64,000 nucleotides of DNA from Gerris lacustris (lineage: Eukaryota > Arthropoda > Insecta > Hemiptera > Gerridae), in assembly GCA_951217055.1 (NCBI GenBank), contig OX578276.1:31829505-31893504 (forward strand). Reading direction: 5' to 3'. A program made the position numbers and the translations under genes. The notes beneath the pieces were generated by a model that was given only the letters and a program-made list of their open reading frames with translations, was not told where the DNA came from and searched no databases. Positions 10,936-63,341 of this stretch are shown here, piece after piece; positions within the stretch are counted from its first letter, which is position 1; every line of letters begins with the position of its first letter.

Positions 10936-11377
10936 TAGATTATTAAAAACATGTATAGTGCTGGCTGTTATTTTTGCTGGGCCCTGGGCATAGAATAACA
11001 AAATATGGTCATTTCTTGATTATTAGTCGATTGTAGGAAGCACGTGTCGTCTTCAATGGAGGCTCTTCATATAAGTCCAAATACTATTAGATAACGATAA
11101 CAAAACGTATTTACCTAATAAGTTTTTAACATACATCTATAATGTTTAAAGTTAAATTGTTGTTTTCTTTTGACAATATTAGGTTGTATTTGACCAAAAG
11201 TAGGTTGAAATAGTACATTACGCGTCGAGTGCGGAAAGTAGCATTTTGCATGCGAGTGTGGAGTTTGCACCCGAGCGATAGCGAGGGTGGTAAAACCACA
11301 CGAGCAATGCAAAATGCCGTTTTCGCACGAGTTGCGTACCGTACTTTATCTACGATTGTTAGATTTAAATAATAAAT

Positions 11378-11527
11378 ACAGAAAAAAATAAACTTGCTGT
11401 ATGTAAGTTCGTATCTCTCTTTTGATAAAGATGGCATTAATTCATTAGTTGTATTTTTTTCTGAATTAATTATTTCTGGAGGAGTATTATTCTCCACATT
11501 TTCGTCAAAGTCACTTGATTCACTCAT
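11378..11527 (-). pseudogene. Family G leader ORF (Crypton-like N-terminus?)
   Basis: The ATG at 11527-11525 opens an acidic leader, MSESSDFDENVENNTPPEII, followed by NSEKNTTNELMPSLSKERYE and LTYSKF. The order acidic leader, then LMPxxSKERYExxYxxF, resembles the start of insect Crypton-type (tyrosine recombinase) proteins. After YSKF the frame continues into AT-rich sequence and then the terminal inverted repeat, so no recombinase core (R...HxxR...Y) is present. The frame stays open to about 11126 but the distal part is repeat-derived. This is a short remnant that may mark a non-autonomous derivative. Confidence 0.4.
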
Positions 11528-11630
11528 TGTTTTTCACTAAAAACTCGATATAAACAGTTACTTTAATATAAGAACAGCAAATTAGTTTTGTTAAATGTAA
11601 ACAAACTCGCTAATCGTGCGTAAAGCTAAA

Positions 11631-11680
11631 AAGAATTCCTCTTCTTTACCACGCTAGCGTGGTAAAGAAGAGGAATTCTT
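11631..11680. repeat. Perfect 50-bp palindrome without spacer
   Basis: The 25-base left half (AAGAATTCCTCTTC...CACGCT) is the exact reverse complement of the right half, with no central spacer. It lies about 100 bp upstream of the family G leader ORF start. The same position holds a 50-bp version with two mismatches at 18639-18688. Confidence 0.95.
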
Positions 11681-12014
11681 CAGAACTATGAGACGCGCAT
11701 GCGCAATGAATACAAGTACGTAAATAATCACTTTCTACGCATCTAAACATAGATATAATGTTTATATTTCGTATCAATCGTAGATAAAAGCATAAAATCA
11801 TTAAAGTATACGATATAGGACGAGATGAAGCTATATGCCAAACTAATTGACAGACTATTTTTTCTATTCAATTATGACTCTATGCATGGTTTTTCTATGT
11901 TAAATACAACTATAAATACAAAAAATATTTTGATACTTCAATAACTATTTAATATCGACTCAATCGATCTAGGTAATGCCGAATTATTACGAATGTCTTT
12001 AACATAACACTCAC

Positions 12015-13340: not shown

Positions 13341-13616
13341 TTACGCTTTTCATTAAATATAAATTATAAAATCTCTGTAATAACTACGTATACATGGCGG
13401 AGTTAGAAAAGAGACAAAATTAAAAGTAACTAACTATTTGTACTAACAGAGTTAAGGCAAAATTAAATGAAAATCTTTTTATTATCTTTGAAGCGAGCGT
13501 CTTTCTTCTTTATATTGAGAAAAAAGTTAATGATAAATTTATATTTATTTCTAAGTAGAGGATCCAGTTTAGGGTAGTAAGAAAGCGACTACAACTCTCT
13601 GATCATCATTCAAGAC

Positions 13617-15368
13617 ATGGCCCTTACTAAACGTTTTCTTCTAGAACACCCACAAATTTTAATAACGAAATCAGATAAAACTAATTCAACTGTTATCATA
13701 GATAAACATACGTATAACGATAAGATGATTGAATTACTTAGTGATAAAGGCACGTATAGATTACTGAGAACGGACCCCACGGACAAAATAAAAAAAGATT
13801 ATAAAACTATTATAAATAAACTTTTTAATAATAAATATATAGATAAACAAAAGCGTGCCGCTCTCAATAATATGAACACTTATTGCCCCAGAATATATGG
13901 ACTTCCCAAAACTCACAAAGCCAACCTTCCACTTAGACCAATTATAAGCCAAATTAATGCACCTCTCGAGAAATTCACTAAATTTATGAACCCCTCCTTA
14001 AACCAACTTAATAGAAACAATAATTATGACGTTGCTAATTCATTGGAAGTAAAGCAGAAACTTAAAGACATCACCATTGATGCAGACGAAAAGATGATTT
14101 CCATCGACGTAATGTCACTTTTTACTAATGTACCTTTGGAAATTTTTTATCAAATTATTAGGAACAATTGGGACCAAATTCTACCCAACACCCCAATCAA
14201 AGACAAAAATCTGTATGTGGAATGTTTGAAACTTATTCTCAATAATGGTACCTTTAAATATGACAACCAGTATTACGCTCAGAAGCACGGTATACCGATG
14301 GGGGGGGCCATCTCCGTCAACGTTTCCGGGATTGTTTTAAATCACATTCTTAACACTATAAGTAATAAATTCAAATTTAAAATTTTGGTCAAATATATTG
14401 ATGATTTATTCCTTATCATCCATAATAATGAGATAGAACCCCTTTTAAACCTTCTGAATGAATTTCATCCTAGATTAAAATTTACTGTTGAGGAAGAGAA
14501 TAATAATACACTTAATTTCCTAGACATCACAATGATAAGAAACAATAATGGCTCTATTTCAACTAGATGGTACGAGAAAAGTAATAAGAGTAGTAGATTC
14601 TTAAATTTCAGATCTCTGCATCCTACACATCAAATAACCAACTCTGCAAACAATCTTATTAAGAAAGCTATTTCACTTACTGATCATAGTCACCTTGAAT
14701 CAATCAAATATAAAATCTTCAACAAATTAAAAGATAATTTTTACCCCCAGAAGGTCATCAAAAAGCTCTGGTATAAACACACCCACATTAATAATGTCAA
14801 TGACAACACCACAGTAGGAATCAGTACATTAAGACCAATAAAACATGTAAGCATGCCATACATTAAGGGATTGTCGGACAAGGTCCAAAATCTAATGGTA
14901 AAATTTGATTGCCCCGAAATCAAATTCGGTTTTAAACCTCTAAACAAAACTGGGAGACTGTATCATAATTTGAAGGATAAAATACCTTTTGAACACACAA
15001 TAGGCACTGTTTACGAAATACCGTGTGGACAGTGTGATAAGTCATACATCGGGGAAAGTAATCAGCTCATTACTAATAGGATTGAGCAACATAAATACGA
15101 CCAAAATAAAGGTAATTCCAATACAGCGTTATCGAGTCACACCTTAGCCACTAATCACAAATTTGTATTTGAAGAGACGAGGATTATAGGGAGAGAGACC
15201 GCAACTAATAGAAGACGAATGATGGAAGCCCTCAACATCGCTATTAAATCAGAAAAGACGGTCAATATTAAAACAGATTCTAGGTCGCTTAATAAATATT
15301 ATAGTGGAATTTACTATGATCACTCGAATCGAAATCCCCGCCATGGACAATTAGCACGGCCTTCTTGA
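13617..15368 (+). CDS. Penelope-like reverse transcriptase with GIY-YIG endonuclease
   Basis: A 583-residue ORF. The RT region has the Penelope-specific YGLPKTHK (residues 94-101), motif A SIDVMSLFTNVP with Asp164, a B-like motif HGIPMGG (224-230), and the catalytic YIDD (260-263). The C-terminal endonuclease has TVYEIP (464-469) in place of GIY, CGQC (470-473), and YIG (477-479); His508 and His514 complete the CCHH pattern of these endonucleases. Arg488 and Glu538 could be the active-site pair. The protein nicks target DNA and reverse-transcribes its own RNA there. It is shorter than typical family members (often about 800 residues), so N-terminal residues may be missing. The ATG at 13617 is the first in frame after the inverted repeat. 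No stop or frameshift is seen. The antisense strand holds only chance ORFs. Confidence 0.93.
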   Translation: MALTKRFLLEHPQILITKSDKTNSTVIIDKHTYNDKMIELLSDKGTYRLLRTDPTDKIKKDYKTIINKLFNNKYIDKQKRAALNNMNTYCPRIYGLPKTHKANLPLRPIISQINAPLEKFTKFMNPSLNQLNRNNNYDVANSLEVKQKLKDITIDADEKMISIDVMSLFTNVPLEIFYQIIRNNWDQILPNTPIKDKNLYVECLKLILNNGTFKYDNQYYAQKHGIPMGGAISVNVSGIVLNHILNTISNKFKFKILVKYIDDLFLIIHNNEIEPLLNLLNEFHPRLKFTVEEENNNTLNFLDITMIRNNNGSISTRWYEKSNKSSRFLNFRSLHPTHQITNSANNLIKKAISLTDHSHLESIKYKIFNKLKDNFYPQKVIKKLWYKHTHINNVNDNTTVGISTLRPIKHVSMPYIKGLSDKVQNLMVKFDCPEIKFGFKPLNKTGRLYHNLKDKIPFEHTIGTVYEIPCGQCDKSYIGESNQLITNRIEQHKYDQNKGNSNTALSSHTLATNHKFVFEETRIIGRETATNRRRMMEALNIAIKSEKTVNIKTDSRSLNKYYSGIYYDHSNRNPRHGQLARPS

Positions 15369-15890
15369 TTAGTGTATGAGTGACGGCTGCGAGTACATTT
15401 TATCACATTATTTAATCTGACTTCCCCCCTTTTTTTGCAAGTTTTCAGTAAATATTCAGATTTTCTTAATCACATTATTAAGTTTTTATGTAATTTATAA
15501 ATTATAATTATGTTTTTTAAAGCTTCTAGTAACGTAAACCTACCGGTGATAACAGTGTGATAAGAGACTGACAATCTGTCACTCTCTCTCGAAATTTTAA
15601 TTTTTATCTGTGATATTCTTTGTAAAACGTATAATGTTACCCACTGTTATTTATGTTTTTAATTCTATGTTAGTATTGTTATTAAGTGTTGTTATCCTAT
15701 TTATGACGAATCAGTGGAATTGTTAGACGACGGAACTGTAGAGTTCCTATATTGTACACAATTTAACTTATTATAAAATGACTTCACTGACTCAAGTGCA
15801 AACCGCAAGGTATTTATAAGTAACATCTAGTCAATACTGGTGTTTTCTTCAGTGTTACGACACTTATATTGTAGTTAATAGCAAATATAT

Positions 15891-15938
15891 GATTTTAGGC
15901 TTGAAAATGGCCGGCTAGGCCGAAACGTTGCCGTAATC
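15891..15938 (+). ncRNA. Hammerhead ribozyme-like motif at the Penelope 3' end
   Basis: The order is GATT, TTA, GGC, then the core TTGAAAA, a single T, stem II GGCC-GGCTA-GGCC, GAAA, CGT, T, then GCC, GT, AATC. GGC/GCC and GATT/AATC can form stem I with a small internal loop, and A-CG-T gives a minimal stem III with U as the cleavage-site base before GCC. Compared with the consensus CUGANGA, positions 3 and 8 are U and A instead of C and G; these two bases pair in the active fold, so the change is compensatory. Activity is not proven. Confidence 0.55.
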
Positions 15939-16919
15939 AGAGAGTTGTAGTCGCTTTCTTACTACCCTAAACTGGATCCTCTACTTAGAAATAACGATAA
16001 TTAAGGGTACCCTACAGCCAATTTACTTGATAAATTTATAGTTAAAGCAGATGGTTGTAGAACGAAAAAGAACTGTCCTCCCAGACCCCGTCGCCATATT
16101 ACTCCAATTAAATATTAAAATAAAAAATATAAATCATTAACTCACAAAAACTTCTGCTTGTATCAAGTTGAAATGTTACATGCTTGTTTCAATTGTACTG
16201 TAGGTGATGTATACAAAGATTCATTTAAATCTTTACGTTAGAACGTAAGATATCGGTAAAAACGTTGTTTTCTTTATTTTAATCGGTTTGGTCCGCTTTA
16301 ATAAATTAAGCGATCTTTATCACTTCATAGTAGTGTCGGTGTTCGTTTTACTAAAAAAAATTATTTATAAAAGTTGTTTGTCTCATTAAATAGATGAAGT
16401 TAGAATTTTTTCCCGTCCAAAAATTCCCATTTTAAATTCGAAGCTTACGTTTACTCGAGCGTTGCGCGTGAACGCTTGGGCGGATAACGTTGTCCGACGA
16501 ACTTGTCCCGGACATTGGTAAAATGAACATGTGTACCAAATTTCAACTAAGTCGGTCAACTTTTACTCCAGTTATCGCCATCGGTAGATTTCGTGACGGA
16601 TTTTGCGTAACGGTGATTTTGTGACGGTTATTTTGTGACGGTGATTTGGTGACGGTTATTTTGTGACGGTTATTTTGTGACGGTGATTTTGGTCGTTTTT
16701 TTCGGATTCACTCCCGGGCTCCAGAACGTGCCATAAGGAACTTTGTTCCAAAATACCCTCAACTTTTTAAATAAACACACCACCCATAATAAGGCAATAA
16801 GAAGTAAAATTCGAAAATGCTGTAATTCTAATGTGTGGTAGAAATCCCGGCGGCATAGTGTCATAGTATTTGCCAGTAGATGCTAAATTATCTTTTTTAA
16901 ACAAAACCTAGTTAAATTC

Positions 16920-17240
16920 CCTTACTACAAATGAATCTTTTTAAAAAAAAGTTTATTTGAAGGTAAACTTAATACGAATTAAGTTTAATACAAATTAACA
17001 ACTACGCAAATTGCCTCAAAAATCTCTCTCTCTGTAGTGGAGACAACTCTTACAGGAACAGATAGATGTACAGAGTTAGATGTATAGTTATACAAATGGC
17101 AGAAATTTATAAAATGAAATGGGCTCTGCACTGGGTGTGGCTGGCTTATTTATATAAATTAGTGCTGAGGTCATGATTATACTGTGTTTGTGTGTGTTTG
17201 TTGGTATATCAATGTGTTACTCACTTCAGCAGTTTACTTA
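16920..17240 (-). mobile_element. Diverged solo LTR related to the LTR at 20547-20926
   Basis: Read on the minus strand it follows the same order as the better LTR: GTGTTAC and CAAACACACACA near the start, a TATA-like TTATATAAAT about 17150, AGCCACACCC, GTTGTCTCC, and AATAAAC-like sequence near the end (about 16950). Identity is low and the ends are unclear. It lies in the opposite orientation to its relative. Confidence 0.45.
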
Positions 17241-18225
17241 AATATAACTAAATTATGTTTAATACTATCTTATTTCGACCACTTTAGTTAATTATAAGCT
17301 CACTCACTAATTTCATTAAATTTAAAATAGTTATTGAGGCTAATATAAGTTGCCCGAGTTTTTGTTGTTTATAAGTCATATTTTATTTAATATGACTTAA
17401 TACTTTCAATAAATTATATAATATATAATTTTTAAATAACATAAAAATATGTATAAGAAAAATACCTTGTACCTTGCCGCGCTTGTGTGTCATTCTGAAG
17501 AATTTAATCATAACATAAACTTTAAGGATACTTCTATTTTAAAGAAAGAAAATAATAATTATAAAAGAAAACCTTTTAGAAGCCGCAATAATCTCTTTTC
17601 ACCCTAATACAATGAATTATAAAACAGACACGAAAGAGCTTAATAAGTTTTATTCAGGAGTTTTTGATAACAAACATATTTTTTTTTTAAAAAATAGTAT
17701 AGCTTTAATATGTTAAAAGTCTGTTTCTTTTGTCTGGTCATAGTTAAAAAATCAATTGTTATAAGTTTTGTATTGTTAAATATTGTTAATTTTCGTTATA
17801 ATAATTGTTAAACAAAGTTTTTTATATCTGAATCACAATGTAATATATTATAGTTTAAATAATATTTTAGTCAGCACTAAATGTTAAGTAAGTCAACTCT
17901 AACTCATATAGATTAGGTAAATTTTGTACAAATAAGAAAGCCAGCAATAGTTACCACAAAAAAATGAATGTACGTAGCACTTAGCACATGGTTTTTAAAT
18001 TTGTTTTTATTGTTAATTATTAAAATTTTAGTATGTTGTATGTCAAAATTAGTAGTGGATGGTGATAGATTAATATTAGGACATTTTTTTTATATTTGTA
18101 TAAAAAAAATTTTTTTTCCGTGGTAGGCTGTGAAATAGTAACTTTAGAGCCTAAAAAACATAGCTAAAATCCATTTTTACTTCCGGACTTAAAAAATCTT
18201 TTCATTACTCCTAGCTGTAAAGAAA
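17241..18225. other. AT-rich stretch without recognisable feature
   Basis: Very AT-rich sequence with short homopolymer runs. I see no open frame of interest and no repeat family recognised elsewhere in the window. Confidence 0.4.
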
Positions 18226-18392
18226 TTGTACATTACGCGTCGAGTGCGGAAAGTAGCATTTTGCATGCGAGTGTGGAGTTTGCACCCGAGCGATAGCGAT
18301 GGTGGTAAAACCACACGAGCAATGCAAAATGCCGTTTTCGCACGAGTTGCGTACCGAACTTTATCTACGATTGTTAGATTTAAATCATAAAT

Positions 18393-18542
18393 ACAGAAAA
18401 AAATAAACTTGCTGTATGTAAGTTCGTATCTCTCTCTTGATAAAGATGGCATTAATTCATTAGTTGTATTTTTTGCCGAATTAATTATTTCTGGAGGAGT
18501 ATTATTCTCCACATTTTCGTCAAAGTCACTTGATTCACTCAT
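18393..18542 (-). pseudogene. Family G leader ORF, third copy
   Basis: The ATG at 18542 opens MSESSDFDENVENNTPPEII, then NSAKNTTNELMPSLSRERYE and LTYSKF. It differs from the 11527 copy at two residues (A for E, R for K). The frame then runs into the terminal inverted repeat. The interpretation is the same: a possible Crypton-like N-terminal remnant without a catalytic domain. Confidence 0.4.
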
Positions 18543-18638
18543 TGTTTTTCACTAAAAACTCGATATAAACAGTTACTTTAATAAAAGCAAATTAGTTTTG
18601 TTAAATGTAAACAAACTAGCTAATCGTGCGTAAAGCTG

Positions 18639-18688
18639 AAGAATTCCTCTTCTTTACCGCACTAGTGTGGTAAAGAAGAGGAATTATT
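18639..18688. repeat. 50-bp palindrome, two mismatches
   Basis: Counterpart of 11631-11680; the centre reads GCACT/AGTGT and the right arm ends GAATTATT instead of GAATTCTT. Confidence 0.9.
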
Positions 18689-19191
18689 TAGAACTATGAG
18701 ACGCGCATGCGCAATGAATACAAGTACGTAAATAATCACTTTCTACGCATCTAAACAAAAATATAATGTTTATATTTCGTATCAATCGTAGATAAAAATC
18801 TTTTACGTCCTAGGAACTAAAAGATTTTTATTTTCCGGCGGGTATTTGTCAAAACTTCCGTCAGTAGCGCTGCAGTCTTTGTAGAAATCTTGTAGAAATG
18901 CTGTAAGAAATCTTTGTAGAAATGCTTAGTACGATTTAATTCCGCTAGATGTCAATGCGTTTTATTTATCTTTTCTTATAGTGTAACCTCTTTTTAAGGT
19001 TTCTTTTTTTAAATATTAAGTATGTACTAATATTTTTTATTATATTGATTATTTATTAATATTTAATGTTTTTTCATTTTCTGCTACCTCGGAAAAAATT
19101 GCATATGCTACGCGACTGTGAAGTGTTTTTTCTTTACCTTGGCAATATTTATTGCCAAGGTGTGTTATTTCAAGGTGTGTTATTAGTGTTA

Positions 19192-19251
19192 TTTCTTTAC
19201 CTTGGCCTGATGATGTCTCTAATGAGACGAAATATAGCCATTTTTAAGAAA
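19192..19251 (+). ncRNA. Hammerhead ribozyme-like motif with consensus core
   Basis: The order is TTTCTT, six-base loop, GGC, core CTGATGA (19207-19213), single T, stem II GTCTC-TAAT-GAGAC, GAAA (19229-19232), TAT, A, GCC, six-base loop, AAGAAA. All invariant core bases are present: C3 U4 G5 A6 G8 A9 and G12 A13 A14. GGC/GCC and TTTCTT/AAGAAA can form stem I across an internal loop. Stem III is reduced to one A-U pair, as in minimal type I hammerheads of Penelope elements and retrozymes. The geometry equals that of the motif at 15891-15938. No RT ORF is nearby. Confidence 0.6.
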
Positions 19252-19734: not shown

Positions 19735-20400
19735 AACGAAGTTGCTTATCTTATGACACGTTACAGCATCTGGAGCCCGGGAGTGATCCGACAAAAACGA
19801 CTGTCACGAAATCGACTCATGACGATAACTTGAGTAAATGATGACTTAGTTGAAATTTGGTACACTTGTCCATTTTACCAATGACTCAATGACCAGGCTG
19901 AGATACGTTATCAATCAAGTTAGTCAACGTTATCCGCCCAAGCGTTCGCGCTCAACGCTCGGGTAAATGTAAGCTTCAAATTTCAAATAGACATTTTAGG
20001 ACGGGAAAAATTCTAACTTTATCTATTGGATTTTTTTTTTTTTTAGTAAAACCAACACCGATACCGCTATGAAGTGTTAAAGATCGCTAAAAACATTAAA
20101 GTGGACCTGAACGTTTAATAGAGAAAACAATATTTTTGCCGATATCTTACGTTCTAACGTAACGATTTAAATGAAACTTAAATAACTTGAAACTGACATT
20201 TAAAATTAAGCAGAAGTTTTTGTGAAGTTAAGTGATATATTTTATAATATTTTAAATTTAGGCCGGGTAGGTAGGGAGCAGTCCTATTTCCCTCACACTA
20301 CAACCATCCCCTTTAACTATCAACTTTTCTTAATTAACTCTTTTCTCAATATTCAATACATATTTATTTCAAGACGCTCGATTCAATTATTAAAAAAAGG
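19735..20400 (-). repeat. Family H copy, inverted relative to 16016-16749
   Basis: It begins GGAACGAAGTTGCTTA and contains GGAGCCCGGGAGTGATCC, GACGATAACTTGAGTAAAT, ACGTTATCCGCCCAAGCG, TAGTAAAACCAACACCGA and TATCTTACGTTCTAACGTAA, ending near CACTACAACCATCCC. It is the mirror of the right part of 13301-16749. Confidence 0.7.
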
Positions 20401-20642
20401 ATAAAAAGATTAAAAGATTCAATGATTGTTTTCCATTTCATTTTTTTTGTATGTACATTTAATTATTATTGAACATTTCATGAAAATTTATCTTAAAAAT
20501 AATTTCTCCCAGGCGGGGAATAGAACCCAGGCTCTCTCCGTCCGCGAGTTATGTCAATATAGAATGCTGACTCTGTCAATACTTAAGTAACACTGACAAA
20601 CACATACACTCACAGTTTAATCATACGTCAGAGCCACCTTGT

Positions 20643-20650
20643 CTATAAAA
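20643..20650 (+). promoter_or_regulatory. TATA box of the solo LTR
   Basis: CTATAAAAGG lies about 100 bp into the LTR, in the expected place for the U3/R promoter, with the poly(A) signal 232 bp downstream. Confidence 0.6.
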
Positions 20651-20881
20651 GGCCGACCACACCCAAAGCTCGGTACATTATGATTTTAGCCTTTGCATAG
20701 GCAATATGATTTTAGACTTCTTATAATTATTAACTTCTCTTTCACTTAAGTATAAATGCACTTCATTTCTTTTGCCACTGTATTATTTAATACTTTTAAG
20801 GTAAGACGTTGTTGTCTCCAACTCTTACCAAATATATAAGAGTCAGTTTATGTAATTGTAATTTTTGTATGTTTATCTCAA

Positions 20882-20887
20882 AATAAA
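20882..20887 (+). terminator. Poly(A) signal of the solo LTR
   Basis: AATAAA followed by CTTTTTAAAAAAACAG, 40 bp before the LTR end. Confidence 0.55.
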
Positions 20888-21352
20888 CTTTTTAAAAAAA
20901 CAGTTCAGCGAGTGGTTCACATGATTCGCGTTTAAAGCTATTTTATCAGGAACTAGATTTTTTCCGGGAAAACGGCTTATATCGTTAGATCCGTATTTAA
21001 ATGGACTACATTTTAGAATTTTTTAATCAAAATCGTCGGAACCGTTTTCGAGAAATAATTTTTATTCACGTTTTTTCAGTTTTTGGGAAGTAGCGTCCCC
21101 AAATTAGGAGCTAAAATTCATTTCTCGATTTCGCCTCAGGGTATTATTTTTCTGAACATGTACGCCAAATTTCGTCAAAACCGGCCCATTAGTTTAAGCT
21201 CCAGGCGTCTCCACAGACAACAGACAGACAGATAATTTTACAAACCACTTTTTGGACTCAGGGGACCTTAAGACGTGTAAATCCATCAAAATCTGAAAAT
21301 CGAATTTTCCCGCCATCGCAATACTTTCTCTTTGTATGAGAAAATAAAAAAA

Positions 21353-59666: not shown

Positions 59667-62600
59667 TCACGCCCATCGAACCACCTCAGTCTTACCCTCA
59701 AGTCTCCTAGTTTGGGTAATAAAGGAGAGGATATCCTGCCACTTAAGTGTGACAAGTTCCTCCTCTCTGATAATCCCTGATCCTAAGGTGTGAAAGCGTA
59801 GTCTCCCATGTCCTTCGCAAGCTCCCACCAGGTGGTAGGCTGTTTCCTCTTCTTCACCACATACTGGGCATGTGGGGTTCTCTTCAATCTTTAATAGTGC
59901 CAGATGTCTATTTAGTTGACAATGACCTGTTAAGACCCCCACCATTTTTCTTAGGTTGGGTCTACTCAGTCCCATGAGCCATCTGGTTTTCCCTTTATCT
60001 AGCTTAGGCAGCATCATCTTAGTCTGCCTGCATCCTTCAGTTCTTGTCCACACCTTCCCTGCTTCCTCCCAGATCCACATTTTGATGGCCGATTTGGTTT
60101 GACCTCTGGACCAGTCAATAGCGGGCTCTGGTCCACAGAATGGCATGGAGGCACCCCTTTTTGCTATTTCATCTGCTTTTTCATTTCCCGGTACTCCTGT
60201 GTGTCCAGGAACCCAAAGCAGAGTAACCTTCTTTAACTCTGCAAGCGTCTCTAAGGCCTCTTGGCATTCTTTGACCAGTGCTGAGTCTGCACTGGGAGCG
60301 CAGAGTGCCTTAAGTGCTGCTTGACTATCCGAGCATACTACTACTTTTTTAGTTCTCGCCTCTACCACCTCTTGCCTTCTTGCCACCTCTAGGATGGCGT
60401 AGACTTCAGCCTGGAAGACTGTGGTAAATATTCCTAGTGGGAAACTCTCTTGGGTGCCGGACCTTTCTAAGTAAAGTCCCGCACCTGACATACCATTCTC
60501 ATTCTTTGAGCCGTCCGTGTATGCCACCAGAGTCTCTGTATCAAATTTAATATCTCCTGATTCCCAATCGGCTCTGAGTGGGATTTCTACCTCATATCTC
60601 CTTTTCAGTTTAAGCTGATGGTCCACTCCTTTAGTTCTGATCCCCGTAAGTGGGACCTTAAGTTCAGAGAACCTTCCTATGTCCAAGTGTCCTATAATGG
60701 ACCTTTCACCTAGCCATTGTCCGTTGTCTCTTAGTCTGACATACGAGGCGATGGCTTCTCCTCTGATCCATAGCTGGAGAGGGGGGACTCCTACTAAGGC
60801 TTCCAAGGCTGCCGTAGGTGTAGTCCTCATGGCCCCTGTTATACTACGGCAGGCTAACCTCTGGACCTTGCTAAGCCCCTTAGTCGAGCTGGCAACCTCA
60901 GTCCTAGGCCACCACACTAGGGATCCGTAATGAATCCTAGGTCTAATAACTGCGGTGTACAGCCACTTGAGGATTTTCGGGGACAGTCCCCATGTCTTCC
61001 CTACTGCTCGTCTAAGTTGCCAGAAGGTTATCGTAGCCTTTTCTACTACCTTGTCCAAGTGTGATTTCCAAGTTAGTTTTTGGTCTAAGGTAATACCTAG
61101 GTATTTTACCTCGTTGGCCAAAGTAAGCTCATGCCCCAGCAATTTGGGAGCTTTGAAATCCACAAGTTTCCTTTTCCTAGTGAAGATTATCATCTCAGTC
61201 TTTGATGGATTGACTGAGAGTCCTACCTCTCTACACCATCCTTCAATTATCCTACAAGCTCGTTGCATCCTTTCACAGCAGGTACTTAGGAACTTGCCTC
61301 TAATCAGGACTAGTCCATCATCTGCATATGCCTGCAAATAGATATCCTCCTCGGTCATTTTCCTCATAAGTCCATCCATCACCAGGCACCACAGATGTGG
61401 CGAGAGGCAGCTGCCCTGGGGGCACCCTCCTGACACCACTCTAGATGCTTTAGTGCCGGTCATTGATGAACTAACTTTCCTCCCTTTTAGGGAGGATATT
61501 ATCCAATTGATGATGACCTGGGGGGTATTCCTCTGCGTCAGTTCCTCCTTTATATTACTAGATTTTGCCTTATCGAAGGCTCCTTCTACATCAAAGAAGA
61601 GGGCTAAAGTGTAGTCTCCTTTGTGCATTGCCTTTTCTATCCTAGAAGTGGCCGCGTGGAGAGCTGTTTCAGTCGATTTCCCCTTTGAGTATGCATGCTG
61701 ATTGGCATGCAGCGGCTTTCTGGGTAGAATTTCCTCTATTATGTATTTATCTACTATCCTTTCAAGGGTCTTTAGCATGAAGGATGTAAGGCTTATAGGT
61801 CGGAAGGATTTAGCCTGTGTATAGTCCTTCTTGCCTGGTTTAGGGATAAAAACTACCCTAGCTGCTTTCCACACTTCCGGTACCACGCCCATAGCTATAC
61901 TGCCCCTGAAAGTTGCCTCTATACTGGATAATAGACGATCCATACCCCTTTGTATTAGTGCTGGGAATATTTCGTCTTGTCCAGGTGCCTTAAATGGGTG
62001 AAATTTGTCGACGGCCCATTTTATGGCCTCTCTGGTTACTAGGCGGGTCGCCAGGTCCCAGTTCGTCTCTACGCCTGGAGCCTCTCCTAGTGAGTCACCG
62101 ACCTCGTTTCCTTCTCCTGGGAAGTGGGTGAGTAGGAGGTACTCTAGTGTTTCTTCTACACTGAGAGTCCAGGTACCGTCTAGCCTTTTAATGGAGCCTA
62201 AAGTTCTACCATTACCCTCACCACTTAAGATTCTTGCCAGTCTGGTTGCCTCTGGTAGGGACTCAATTCCCTTACAGAAGTCTCTCCAGCCAGCTCTCTT
62301 GCGATTCCTTATTTCTTTTTTGAATTCCCTCCTAGCCCCCCTGAAGCTGTCCCATAGCTCCTCTCCTGGTTCTTTTTTCTTGAAGGCCTTGTTAAAGGCT
62401 TTTCTCGCTTTACTACGGAGCTTATCTAGTCCTTTGTTCCACCAAGTGGCTACCTTTTGGACAGTAGTTTTGGGGGGACAAGCTTCTTGGTAGGCTTCCC
62501 TTATATACAAGCTCAGTTCCGCTGCCTTCCTTTCCAGAGCTTCGGGGTCAGTCAATGCCTCTTTGGTCACTCCTTGGAGGTTTCCGAGTTCCCTGTCAAA

Positions 62601-63341
62601 GGTTTCCCAGTCCGTCCTCCTTGGGTGCCTCTGCGGTGTTACCTCTACTTCATCTATCTGGATACAGAAGCTGACCATGCGATGATCAGACAGCAGAATA
62701 TCTGATGTTAAGTGCCAGCCCTCAATTTTTCCAGATATCCTCCTAGATGCCATTGTGACATCTATTACCTGTGAACGGATTCTGTTTATAAAAATTGGTT
62801 CCGTTCCCCTATTCATTACCTCTAAATCTGTGGATGCTAAGAATTCCAACAGCGCATCACCTCTGCTGTTGCAGTCAGTGCTGCCCCAGGCATGGTGATG
62901 CGCGTTAGCGTCGCAACCAATTATTACTGGAATGGCCTTCTCCTCTGAGAATCTGACAATATTGGTCAGTTCCCTTGTTGGGGGAAGGTCTTGCCTGTCG
63001 TATGGCAAGTATAGACTTGCCATGATCACCTTATTAACTAAACCTTTAACCTTATACTCCAGGATAATTGCTGTGGCGTCTCGGGTCCCTAATTGGGGTA
63101 TGGGTGTTACCTTCAGGTCCTCCGATGCCACTATACAAGTCCTGGGGTTCGCCTCGTCTGGTCCTTCGTTTCCTCCTACCACGAGCCTCTGACCAGACCT
63201 CCTCATCCCTCTCACCTCACCTCTATAAACATAAGGTTCCTGAATTAACACTATTAATGACCCTATTCCAGTCAAGGCTCTCTGTAGTTCTCCTACAGCG
63301 TCTTGACTGTGCTGTAAATTAATGTGTTTTACCTCAATCAT
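59667..63341 (-). CDS. LINE ORF2: APE endonuclease, reverse transcriptase, RNase H
   Basis: 1,224 codons without interruption. The APE-type endonuclease spans residues 1-230: QEPYV (Glu35), GCDANAHHHAWGS (Asp143, Asn145) and LLSDHRM (Asp219-His220). RT spans about 480-780: FRPISL, motif A FFDVEGAFD (Asp584), GCPQGSCLSP and YADD (672-675). RNase H spans about 935-1065: YTDGSK (Asp943), QAEVYA (Glu979), CSDSQAA (Asp1005), VPGHTGVPGNEKAD (Asp1057), so all four catalytic acids are present. A C-terminal CPVC...H...C knuckle lies at 1158-1175. The protein nicks target DNA, primes reverse transcription there and could degrade template RNA. The ATG at 63341 lies within four bases of the ORF1 end, suggesting coupled or re-initiated translation. 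Antisense ORFs are shadows. Confidence 0.96.
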   Translation of the reverse strand: MIEVKHINLQHSQDAVGELQRALTGIGSLIVLIQEPYVYRGEVRGMRRSGQRLVVGGNEGPDEANPRTCIVASEDLKVTPIPQLGTRDATAIILEYKVKGLVNKVIMASLYLPYDRQDLPPTRELTNIVRFSEEKAIPVIIGCDANAHHHAWGSTDCNSRGDALLEFLASTDLEVMNRGTEPIFINRIRSQVIDVTMASRRISGKIEGWHLTSDILLSDHRMVSFCIQIDEVEVTPQRHPRRTDWETFDRELGNLQGVTKEALTDPEALERKAAELSLYIREAYQEACPPKTTVQKVATWWNKGLDKLRSKARKAFNKAFKKKEPGEELWDSFRGARREFKKEIRNRKRAGWRDFCKGIESLPEATRLARILSGEGNGRTLGSIKRLDGTWTLSVEETLEYLLLTHFPGEGNEVGDSLGEAPGVETNWDLATRLVTREAIKWAVDKFHPFKAPGQDEIFPALIQRGMDRLLSSIEATFRGSIAMGVVPEVWKAARVVFIPKPGKKDYTQAKSFRPISLTSFMLKTLERIVDKYIIEEILPRKPLHANQHAYSKGKSTETALHAATSRIEKAMHKGDYTLALFFDVEGAFDKAKSSNIKEELTQRNTPQVIINWIISSLKGRKVSSSMTGTKASRVVSGGCPQGSCLSPHLWCLVMDGLMRKMTEEDIYLQAYADDGLVLIRGKFLSTCCERMQRACRIIEGWCREVGLSVNPSKTEMIIFTRKRKLVDFKAPKLLGHELTLANEVKYLGITLDQKLTWKSHLDKVVEKATITFWQLRRAVGKTWGLSPKILKWLYTAVIRPRIHYGSLVWWPRTEVASSTKGLSKVQRLACRSITGAMRTTPTAALEALVGVPPLQLWIRGEAIASYVRLRDNGQWLGERSIIGHLDIGRFSELKVPLTGIRTKGVDHQLKLKRRYEVEIPLRADWESGDIKFDTETLVAYTDGSKNENGMSGAGLYLERSGTQESFPLGIFTTVFQAEVYAILEVARRQEVVEARTKKVVVCSDSQAALKALCAPSADSALVKECQEALETLAELKKVTLLWVPGHTGVPGNEKADEIAKRGASMPFCGPEPAIDWSRGQTKSAIKMWIWEEAGKVWTRTEGCRQTKMMLPKLDKGKTRWLMGLSRPNLRKMVGVLTGHCQLNRHLALLKIEENPTCPVCGEEEETAYHLVGACEGHGRLRFHTLGSGIIREEELVTLKWQDILSFITQTRRLEGKTEVVRWA

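Follow-up and report, generated by a model that had tools for sequence, protein, structure and literature searches.

Minimal type I hammerheads of Penelope-like elements (PLEs) are reportedly the subject of work by Cervera and De la Pena in 2014 and by Luense et al. in 2017. Near the 3' end of a truncated PLE copy in Gerris lacustris lies a short motif with the same layout, in which core positions 3 and 8 are U and A. Does this motif belong to the PLE hammerheads, and is the exchanged core pair an accident of one copy or the property of a lineage? These questions were addressed in the window, i.e., the whole 64-kb stretch of DNA analysed here, in the remainder of the same genome and in more distant relatives.

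The motif and its element

The motif consists of the following parts.

15898..15932 (+): minimal PLE-type type I hammerhead motif without stem III (from the letters, the fold and a descriptor scan)
15898-15900 / 15930-15932 (+): stem I, GGC/GCC, 3 bp
15901-15907 (+): core UUGAAAA, i.e., U3U4G5A6A7A8A9
15908 (+): single unpaired extra U after A9
15909-15912 / 15918-15921 (+): stem II, GGCC/GGCC, with a 5-nt loop
15922-15924 and 15925 (+): GAAA, comprising G12A13A14 and A15.1
15926-15927, 15928 and 15929 (+): CG, U16.1 and H17 (U15929)
15925..15928 (+): palindrome ACGU (A15.1-C-G-U16.1) in the position of stem III, a candidate shared stem III between tandem copies
15929..15930 (+): predicted self-cleavage site U15929/G15930, from the hammerhead numbering

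C3 and G8 are replaced here by U3 and A8, which can still pair, and the motif keeps U4, G5, A6, A9, G12, A13, A14, the A15.1-U16.1 pair and an allowed H17. A strict type I core consensus does not accommodate it (U3, A8, the extra base after A9); a relaxed consensus with a paired 3-8 does. The core is flanked by stems I and II with conserved pairing, the covariation coming from stem II alone, and the lack of stem III, the palindromic loop and, in sister families, the occurrence in tandem copies are those of a PLE-type minimal hammerhead. A preliminary description of the locus had read the minimal type I layout from the letters and proposed structure prediction as a check. The letters bear it out, and the MFE fold of 15889-15942 shows the same arrangement with an added U15908-G15922 wobble (-16.6 kcal/mol, equalled by 5/200 shuffles). 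The outer GATT/AATC helix of that description forms in the window copy but is not conserved, since in 20 of the 21 sequences of the structure test described below (L056 left out) it did not outperform shuffled flanks (mean z +0.36). It was thus ruled out as a conserved part of the motif; a T-rich tract resembling a splice acceptor lies there.

Within the 64 kb, a descriptor that accepted every Watson-Crick combination at 3-8 and at most one extra base matched twice, at this motif and at 19207. The expectation per window, for both strands under a dinucleotide model, is 0.053 matches with a stem II of 3 bp and 0.013 with 4 bp. In a scored scan, two-mismatch matches with an intact 3-8 pair were expected 0.025 times, and after random double changes in the core all of its pairs would still form in 1.2-1.8 % of cases.

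Rfam gave no match for the window motif at gathering, nor did its hammerhead models at E<=10. The canonical core at 19207, which acts as a positive control, reached 17.8 bits with Hammerhead_3 against a gathering threshold of 48.5, and nothing was returned at gathering for six motif-bearing loci, the canonical L102 and L104 included. Since canonical-core PLE hammerheads also fall below gathering, the silence of Rfam on the window motif says little.

The element copy around the motif has these features.

13531..13543 (+): 5' copy of the TSD TGATAAATTTATA, 13 bp
13539..13603 (-): inverted 5' arm, a copy of tail 15936-16000 (97 % over 65 bp), its first bases overlapping the TSD
13544..16027 (+): 5'-truncated PLE copy (TSD on both sides, protein homology, other copies in its own genome)
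13617..15368 (+): open RT/GIY-YIG frame, 583 aa, by homology
15810..15898 (+): short intron of 89 nt predicted from the sequence, CAAG/GT...TTTTAG/GC, its last base being the first G of stem I
15930..16027 (+): tail, the transposon unit starting past the cut; ends of other copies near 15993 or near 16029
16028..16040 (+): 3' copy of the TSD TGATAAATTTATA, 13 bp

Some 100 nt separate the motif from the 3' end of this copy, which is not in tandem. The 583-aa frame lacks about 280 N-terminal residues, i.e., the N-terminal third, of the 855-863 aa frames of sister families. Pfam found RVT_1 in the protein and did not detect GIY-YIG; the GIY-YIG region was recognised by aligning the protein with relatives, the Pfam domain being present in some of these. 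The element thereby combines a telomerase-like RT with a C-terminal GIY-YIG nuclease. Of the hallmarks of PLEs given in excerpts of PMC3846280 (pLTRs, an inverted 5' repeat, an optional tail of 30-40 bp and a TSD), the truncated copy is without the direct 5' pLTR. An inverted repeat had been described as abutting the motif with a length of 59 bp; it is present, but measures 65 bp at 97 % and begins at 15936, which is 6 nt beyond the cut.

Copies of the family end in two clusters, at query 393-405 (22 copies) and 427-441 (11 copies), matching the pattern of two starts known from PLE tails; the window copy reaches 481 because it is itself the query. Run-off of reverse transcription from cleaved RNA, by which the inverted arm would end at the ribozyme cut, was considered and rejected, as the arm ends show no clustering. 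In the nine of 28 loci with both orientations, the inner arm ends lie at query 1, 1, 68, 193, 224, 267, 312, 333 and 364; with the window, whose inner arm ends at query 337 for a cut at query 331, two of ten ends are close to the cut. In eight of these nine loci one end derives from the short start (near 395) and the other from the long start (near 430).

The match at 19207 belongs to other features of the window.

17431..17671 (+): frameshifted GIY-YIG remnant of a second PLE, about 1.5 kb upstream of the 19207 motif
19204..19239 (+): second hammerhead motif, of the decayed PLE, with a CTGATGA core (19207-19213), an extra U, a 5-bp stem II, GAAA and the palindrome AUAU

That remnant and motif form one element is suggested by their order, their common strand and the analogy to the first element; a 0.58-kb repeat (18222-18797), also found at 11207-11789, lies between them. 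This second PLE is flanked by a large imperfect inverted repeat (16100-16970 / 19770-20910), pieces related to which recur at 38.3-39.7 and 48.2-52.0 kb, and a 14-bp tandem repeat of the TTTTGTGACGGTGA type is found at 16587-16705, in the repeat adjoining the PLE. Two more canonical-core hammerhead-like motifs stand beside copies of the first family (L032:2298-2355 and L010:1932-1991). Further away, a 1224-aa open frame on the minus strand (59667-63341), with weak RT similarity to PLE proteins, is probably part of another retrotransposon.

Conservation of the core and its lineage

A search of the own genome (937 Mb, 69 contigs) with the window's family gave at least 48 matches at 30 loci, 40 of 1,901 candidates being scored. 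The motif is covered by 38 aligned copies, or 34 including the window copy once two overlapping loci are dropped, and U3 and A8 are kept in all 34; one copy (L012) carries G12A. In the 33 non-window copies the motif shows 2 differences in 1,584 bases vs 146 in 8,852 upstream (Fisher 2e-8, the copies not being independent). Private decay of one copy is ruled out by the fixation of U3/A8 in the family.

Beyond the family, a protein search (75 of 6,810 candidates scored) gave at least 76 matches of 100 to 64 % identity, and about twenty sister families were found in the same genome, many with long open frames of up to about 900 aa. Some form tandem arrays with a period of 3296-3354 nt and one motif per unit. 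The motif is present in 34/34 loci L034-L067, in 7/7 short loci and in 19/20 further loci (none in L076). The core reads U3/A8 in 59 of the 60 clade loci and U3/G8 in one (L064), tandem neighbours and near-copies being included in a count that is not of independent loci. The claim that U3 and A8 would preserve the core pair thus holds in the window and in nearly all clade loci read, and the alignment of sister copies, which had been suggested as a way to detect a core drifting without covariation, revealed no such drift. Other positions are less constrained: N7 is A, G or T and H17 is U or C, and stem II occurs as GGCC/GGCC, GGCU/AGCC, GGCA/UGCC, GACC/GGUC and GGCU/GGCC, with the fourth pair unformed in L067. 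The dinucleotide before U16.1 is CG throughout the clade loci except L088 (CA); six places in the genome-wide U3/A8 list also deviate (AC, CA, CC, CA, AG, CT). The families of L065, L067, L089 and L094 carry UCGANAA, i.e., U4C beside U3-A8.

A structure test was carried out on 21 of 40 distinct sequences. Left out were the 54-nt L071, the near-copies L019, L033, L050, L080, L086 and L088, the members of other clades (window 19195, L100, L102, L103, L104, L107, L108 and L114) and the further hits L010, L032, L045 and one of L067; in L094, L098, L099, L107 and L114 the motif was placed by eye, for L099 from a row that matches the L098 row exactly. In the 21 sequences 99.5 % of the structure cells are paired (slid controls 7-57 %), and 8 cells are changed on both sides vs 1.7 in shuffles, with 0/500 shuffles as high. 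Two of five covariation measures, both-side-changed pairs and further pair types, were not above shuffles, 153 and 174 of the 500 shuffles scoring at least as high. All double changes fall in stem II, stem I being invariant in the clade, and pair 3-8 is UA in 20 sequences and UG in one, without a double change; its covariation is visible between clades only. G5, A6, A9, G12, A13, A14 and A15.1-U16.1 are invariant, while N7 and loop II vary.

Patterns were also counted over the whole genome with stem I fixed as GGC/GCC, copies of one family not being independent. U3/A8 was found at 1,676 places, U3/G8 at 356, U3/C4/A8 at 661 and the mismatched C3/A8 at 55, as raw counts over these four combinations; the reversed control gave 0 in each case. 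The mismatched core is uncommon in a genome in which paired U3 cores have been amplified.

More distant families were reached by a search with P0007 (56 matches), for which 20 regions upstream of frames were read. Thirteen contain the motif and seven do not. The core is canonical C3-G8 in L098, L099, L102-L106 and L108, A3/G8 in L100, and U3-A8 in L107, L110, L113 and L114, the family of L110 falling inside the clade of the window motif. Between A9 and stem II every tabulated motif has one extra base; the tabulated families have a self-complementary dinucleotide before U16.1 (CG, GC or TA), from which single copies deviate. On an RT tree of 38 rows, 30 of them from the own genome and with a long-branch warning, all 23 U3 rows and four database proteins stand on one side of a 100/99 branch and the own C3-G8 rows on the other, which amounts to one independent C3-G8/U3-A8 contrast among the families of this genome. 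With U3/A8 in 59 of 60 loci and canonical C3-G8 in distant families, the compensatory 3-8 change is, as judged from the sequences, a trait fixed in the lineage.

A scan of genome contigs yielded three distant loci, one of them with the motif: L001, a contig of a mussel gill-symbiont assembly, carries a U3-A8 motif at position 1103, 270 nt before a PLE frame (0/1,000 null hits). No relative was found in the viral contigs scanned. L001, which is far off on a long branch in a second tree, is likely of eukaryotic origin, contaminating the symbiont assembly, and hints at a second independent U3-A8 switch.

Relation to known hammerheads

That hammerheads are known in PLEs, as the preliminary description had it, agrees with the consulted parts of two reviews (PMC7761336, PMC6466107). 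According to these, PLE hammerheads lack helix III, occur in tandem and may cut as dimers, which require a palindrome in the stem III loop; their role is called unknown in the part of PMC7761336 available. The window motif resembles them in its pLTR position, the lack of stem III, the tandem copies and the dimer-suited palindrome. It differs from them in that pair 3-8 is U-A clade-wide; the unpaired base after A9, present in every tabulated motif, is listed as a further difference but may be usual there.

The exchanged core pair itself is not new. Natural U3-A8 hammerheads were reported in 2011 by Perreault et al. (excerpts of PMC3088659), according to whom in vitro activity had already been proven for covarying 3/8 cores and U4C lowers activity considerably. 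The expectation that a natural U3-A8 version would be unusual therefore stands as to rarity, but not as to novelty. The compensatory core change is the same here as in that work; however, as far as the excerpts go, the 2011 survey has several examples, with cryptic mutants in repeats set aside, whereas here the change is shared as a lineage trait by a clade of amplified retroelements. A literature search found no PLE clade with U3-A8, a weak result, key PLE hammerhead papers being outside its coverage.

Another close system is Poseidon (PAc) of Anolis carolinensis, for which excerpts of PMC11167929 describe a hammerhead that cuts 26 bp past the start codon, with reverse transcription starting 111-118 bp into the ORF. 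It cuts only with the protein and is dispensable for insertion in vitro. Both hammerheads lie at the ORF-start end of the pLTR, with a similar tail length and two RT start sites. In the window, the motif AUG is at 15907; the predicted cut follows after 23 nt and the element ends at +121, and this correspondence in position argues for a PLE hammerhead. PAc differs, in the same excerpts, in having C3, G8 and an ORF that starts at stem II, whereas the main ORF of the sister families measured starts about 170-215 nt past the motif AUG.

Cleavage, alternative readings and meaning

The motif is genuine, being neither a chance match nor the decay of a single copy. It is probably a type I hammerhead of the Penelope type, without stem III, in a lineage that has switched its core pair from C3-G8 to U3-A8 and with putative self-cleavage in tandem; we infer the direction of the switch. 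Architecture, position, conservation, covariation in stem II and near-fixation of U3/A8 in the loci read support this reading, while the lack of an Rfam match, the single C3-G8/U3-A8 contrast, the 3-8 pair without a double change inside the clade, the seven motif-free distant regions, the protein dependence and dispensability of the Anolis hammerhead and the A3/G8 of L100 count against it. In a tandem transcript, two motifs would pair via their palindromic ACGU to form a 4-bp shared stem III, each copy is predicted to cut after U15929, and cutting would yield RNA of unit length that begins in the tail. The dimer MFE fold pairs the copies through stem II and not through ACGU, so that folding energy lends no support to the shared stem III. 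The short stem I (3 bp), the extra base and the U4C of sister families speak against strong activity. As for the history of the core, the odds are about even that the amplified clade replaced a near-universal C3-G8 by U3-A8, with U3-G8 as a possible step, U4C as a further change and the switch perhaps repeated in L001.

The motif could also descend from a hammerhead but have lost the ability to cut, its core having relaxed to U3-A8 and then U4C, and its hairpin being kept for binding of the PLE protein or for positioning reverse transcription. U4C is abundant (661 places), its families are interspersed with U4 families on the RT tree, and Anolis insertion in vitro needed no hammerhead activity (excerpts of PMC11167929). 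However, the invariance of the seven core elements named above, together with an H17 limited to U or C, is not predicted for a mere binding hairpin, which makes loss of cutting rather unlikely.

A third explanation attributes the conservation to a splice acceptor and an upstream start codon (TTTTAG/GC ... AUG). A leader intron occurs in Drosophila Penelope. All 21 sequences have a T-rich tract with an AG whose G is the first base of stem I, and an AGGTA donor lies 79-93 nt upstream in 15/22 rows; L038 has a donor on a separate reading. Splicing from 15809 to 15899 would leave the GGC of stem I intact because the exon ends in G, and the predicted acceptor may explain why outer stem I is not conserved. 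This explanation nevertheless accounts for the upstream tract only, and for neither the covariation of stem II nor the fixed GAAACGUHGCC. The motif AUG was moreover rejected as a conserved coding start, as the short frame that it opens is not conserved: its stops differ among the 21 sequences, the loop of L071 differs in length and L110 has no AUG. Taken as the whole cause of the conservation, splicing and the start codon are very improbable. Chance resemblance or private decay, for which the missing Rfam hammerhead match might be invoked, is hardly credible given the null expectation of 0.013-0.053 per window and the fixation of the motif across copies and nearly all sister loci.

If the clade did replace its core pair in this way, its families document successive natural steps in the evolution of a catalytic core. 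Few RNA active sites are as strictly conserved as the hammerhead core, and the 1,676 U3/A8 places counted in this genome would escape a search restricted to the strict core. A U3-A8 clade, partly with U4C, and its canonical relatives in the same genome make the tolerance of the core testable with natural sequences, and such a clade would show whether the hammerheads of Penelope-like elements are kept for cutting.
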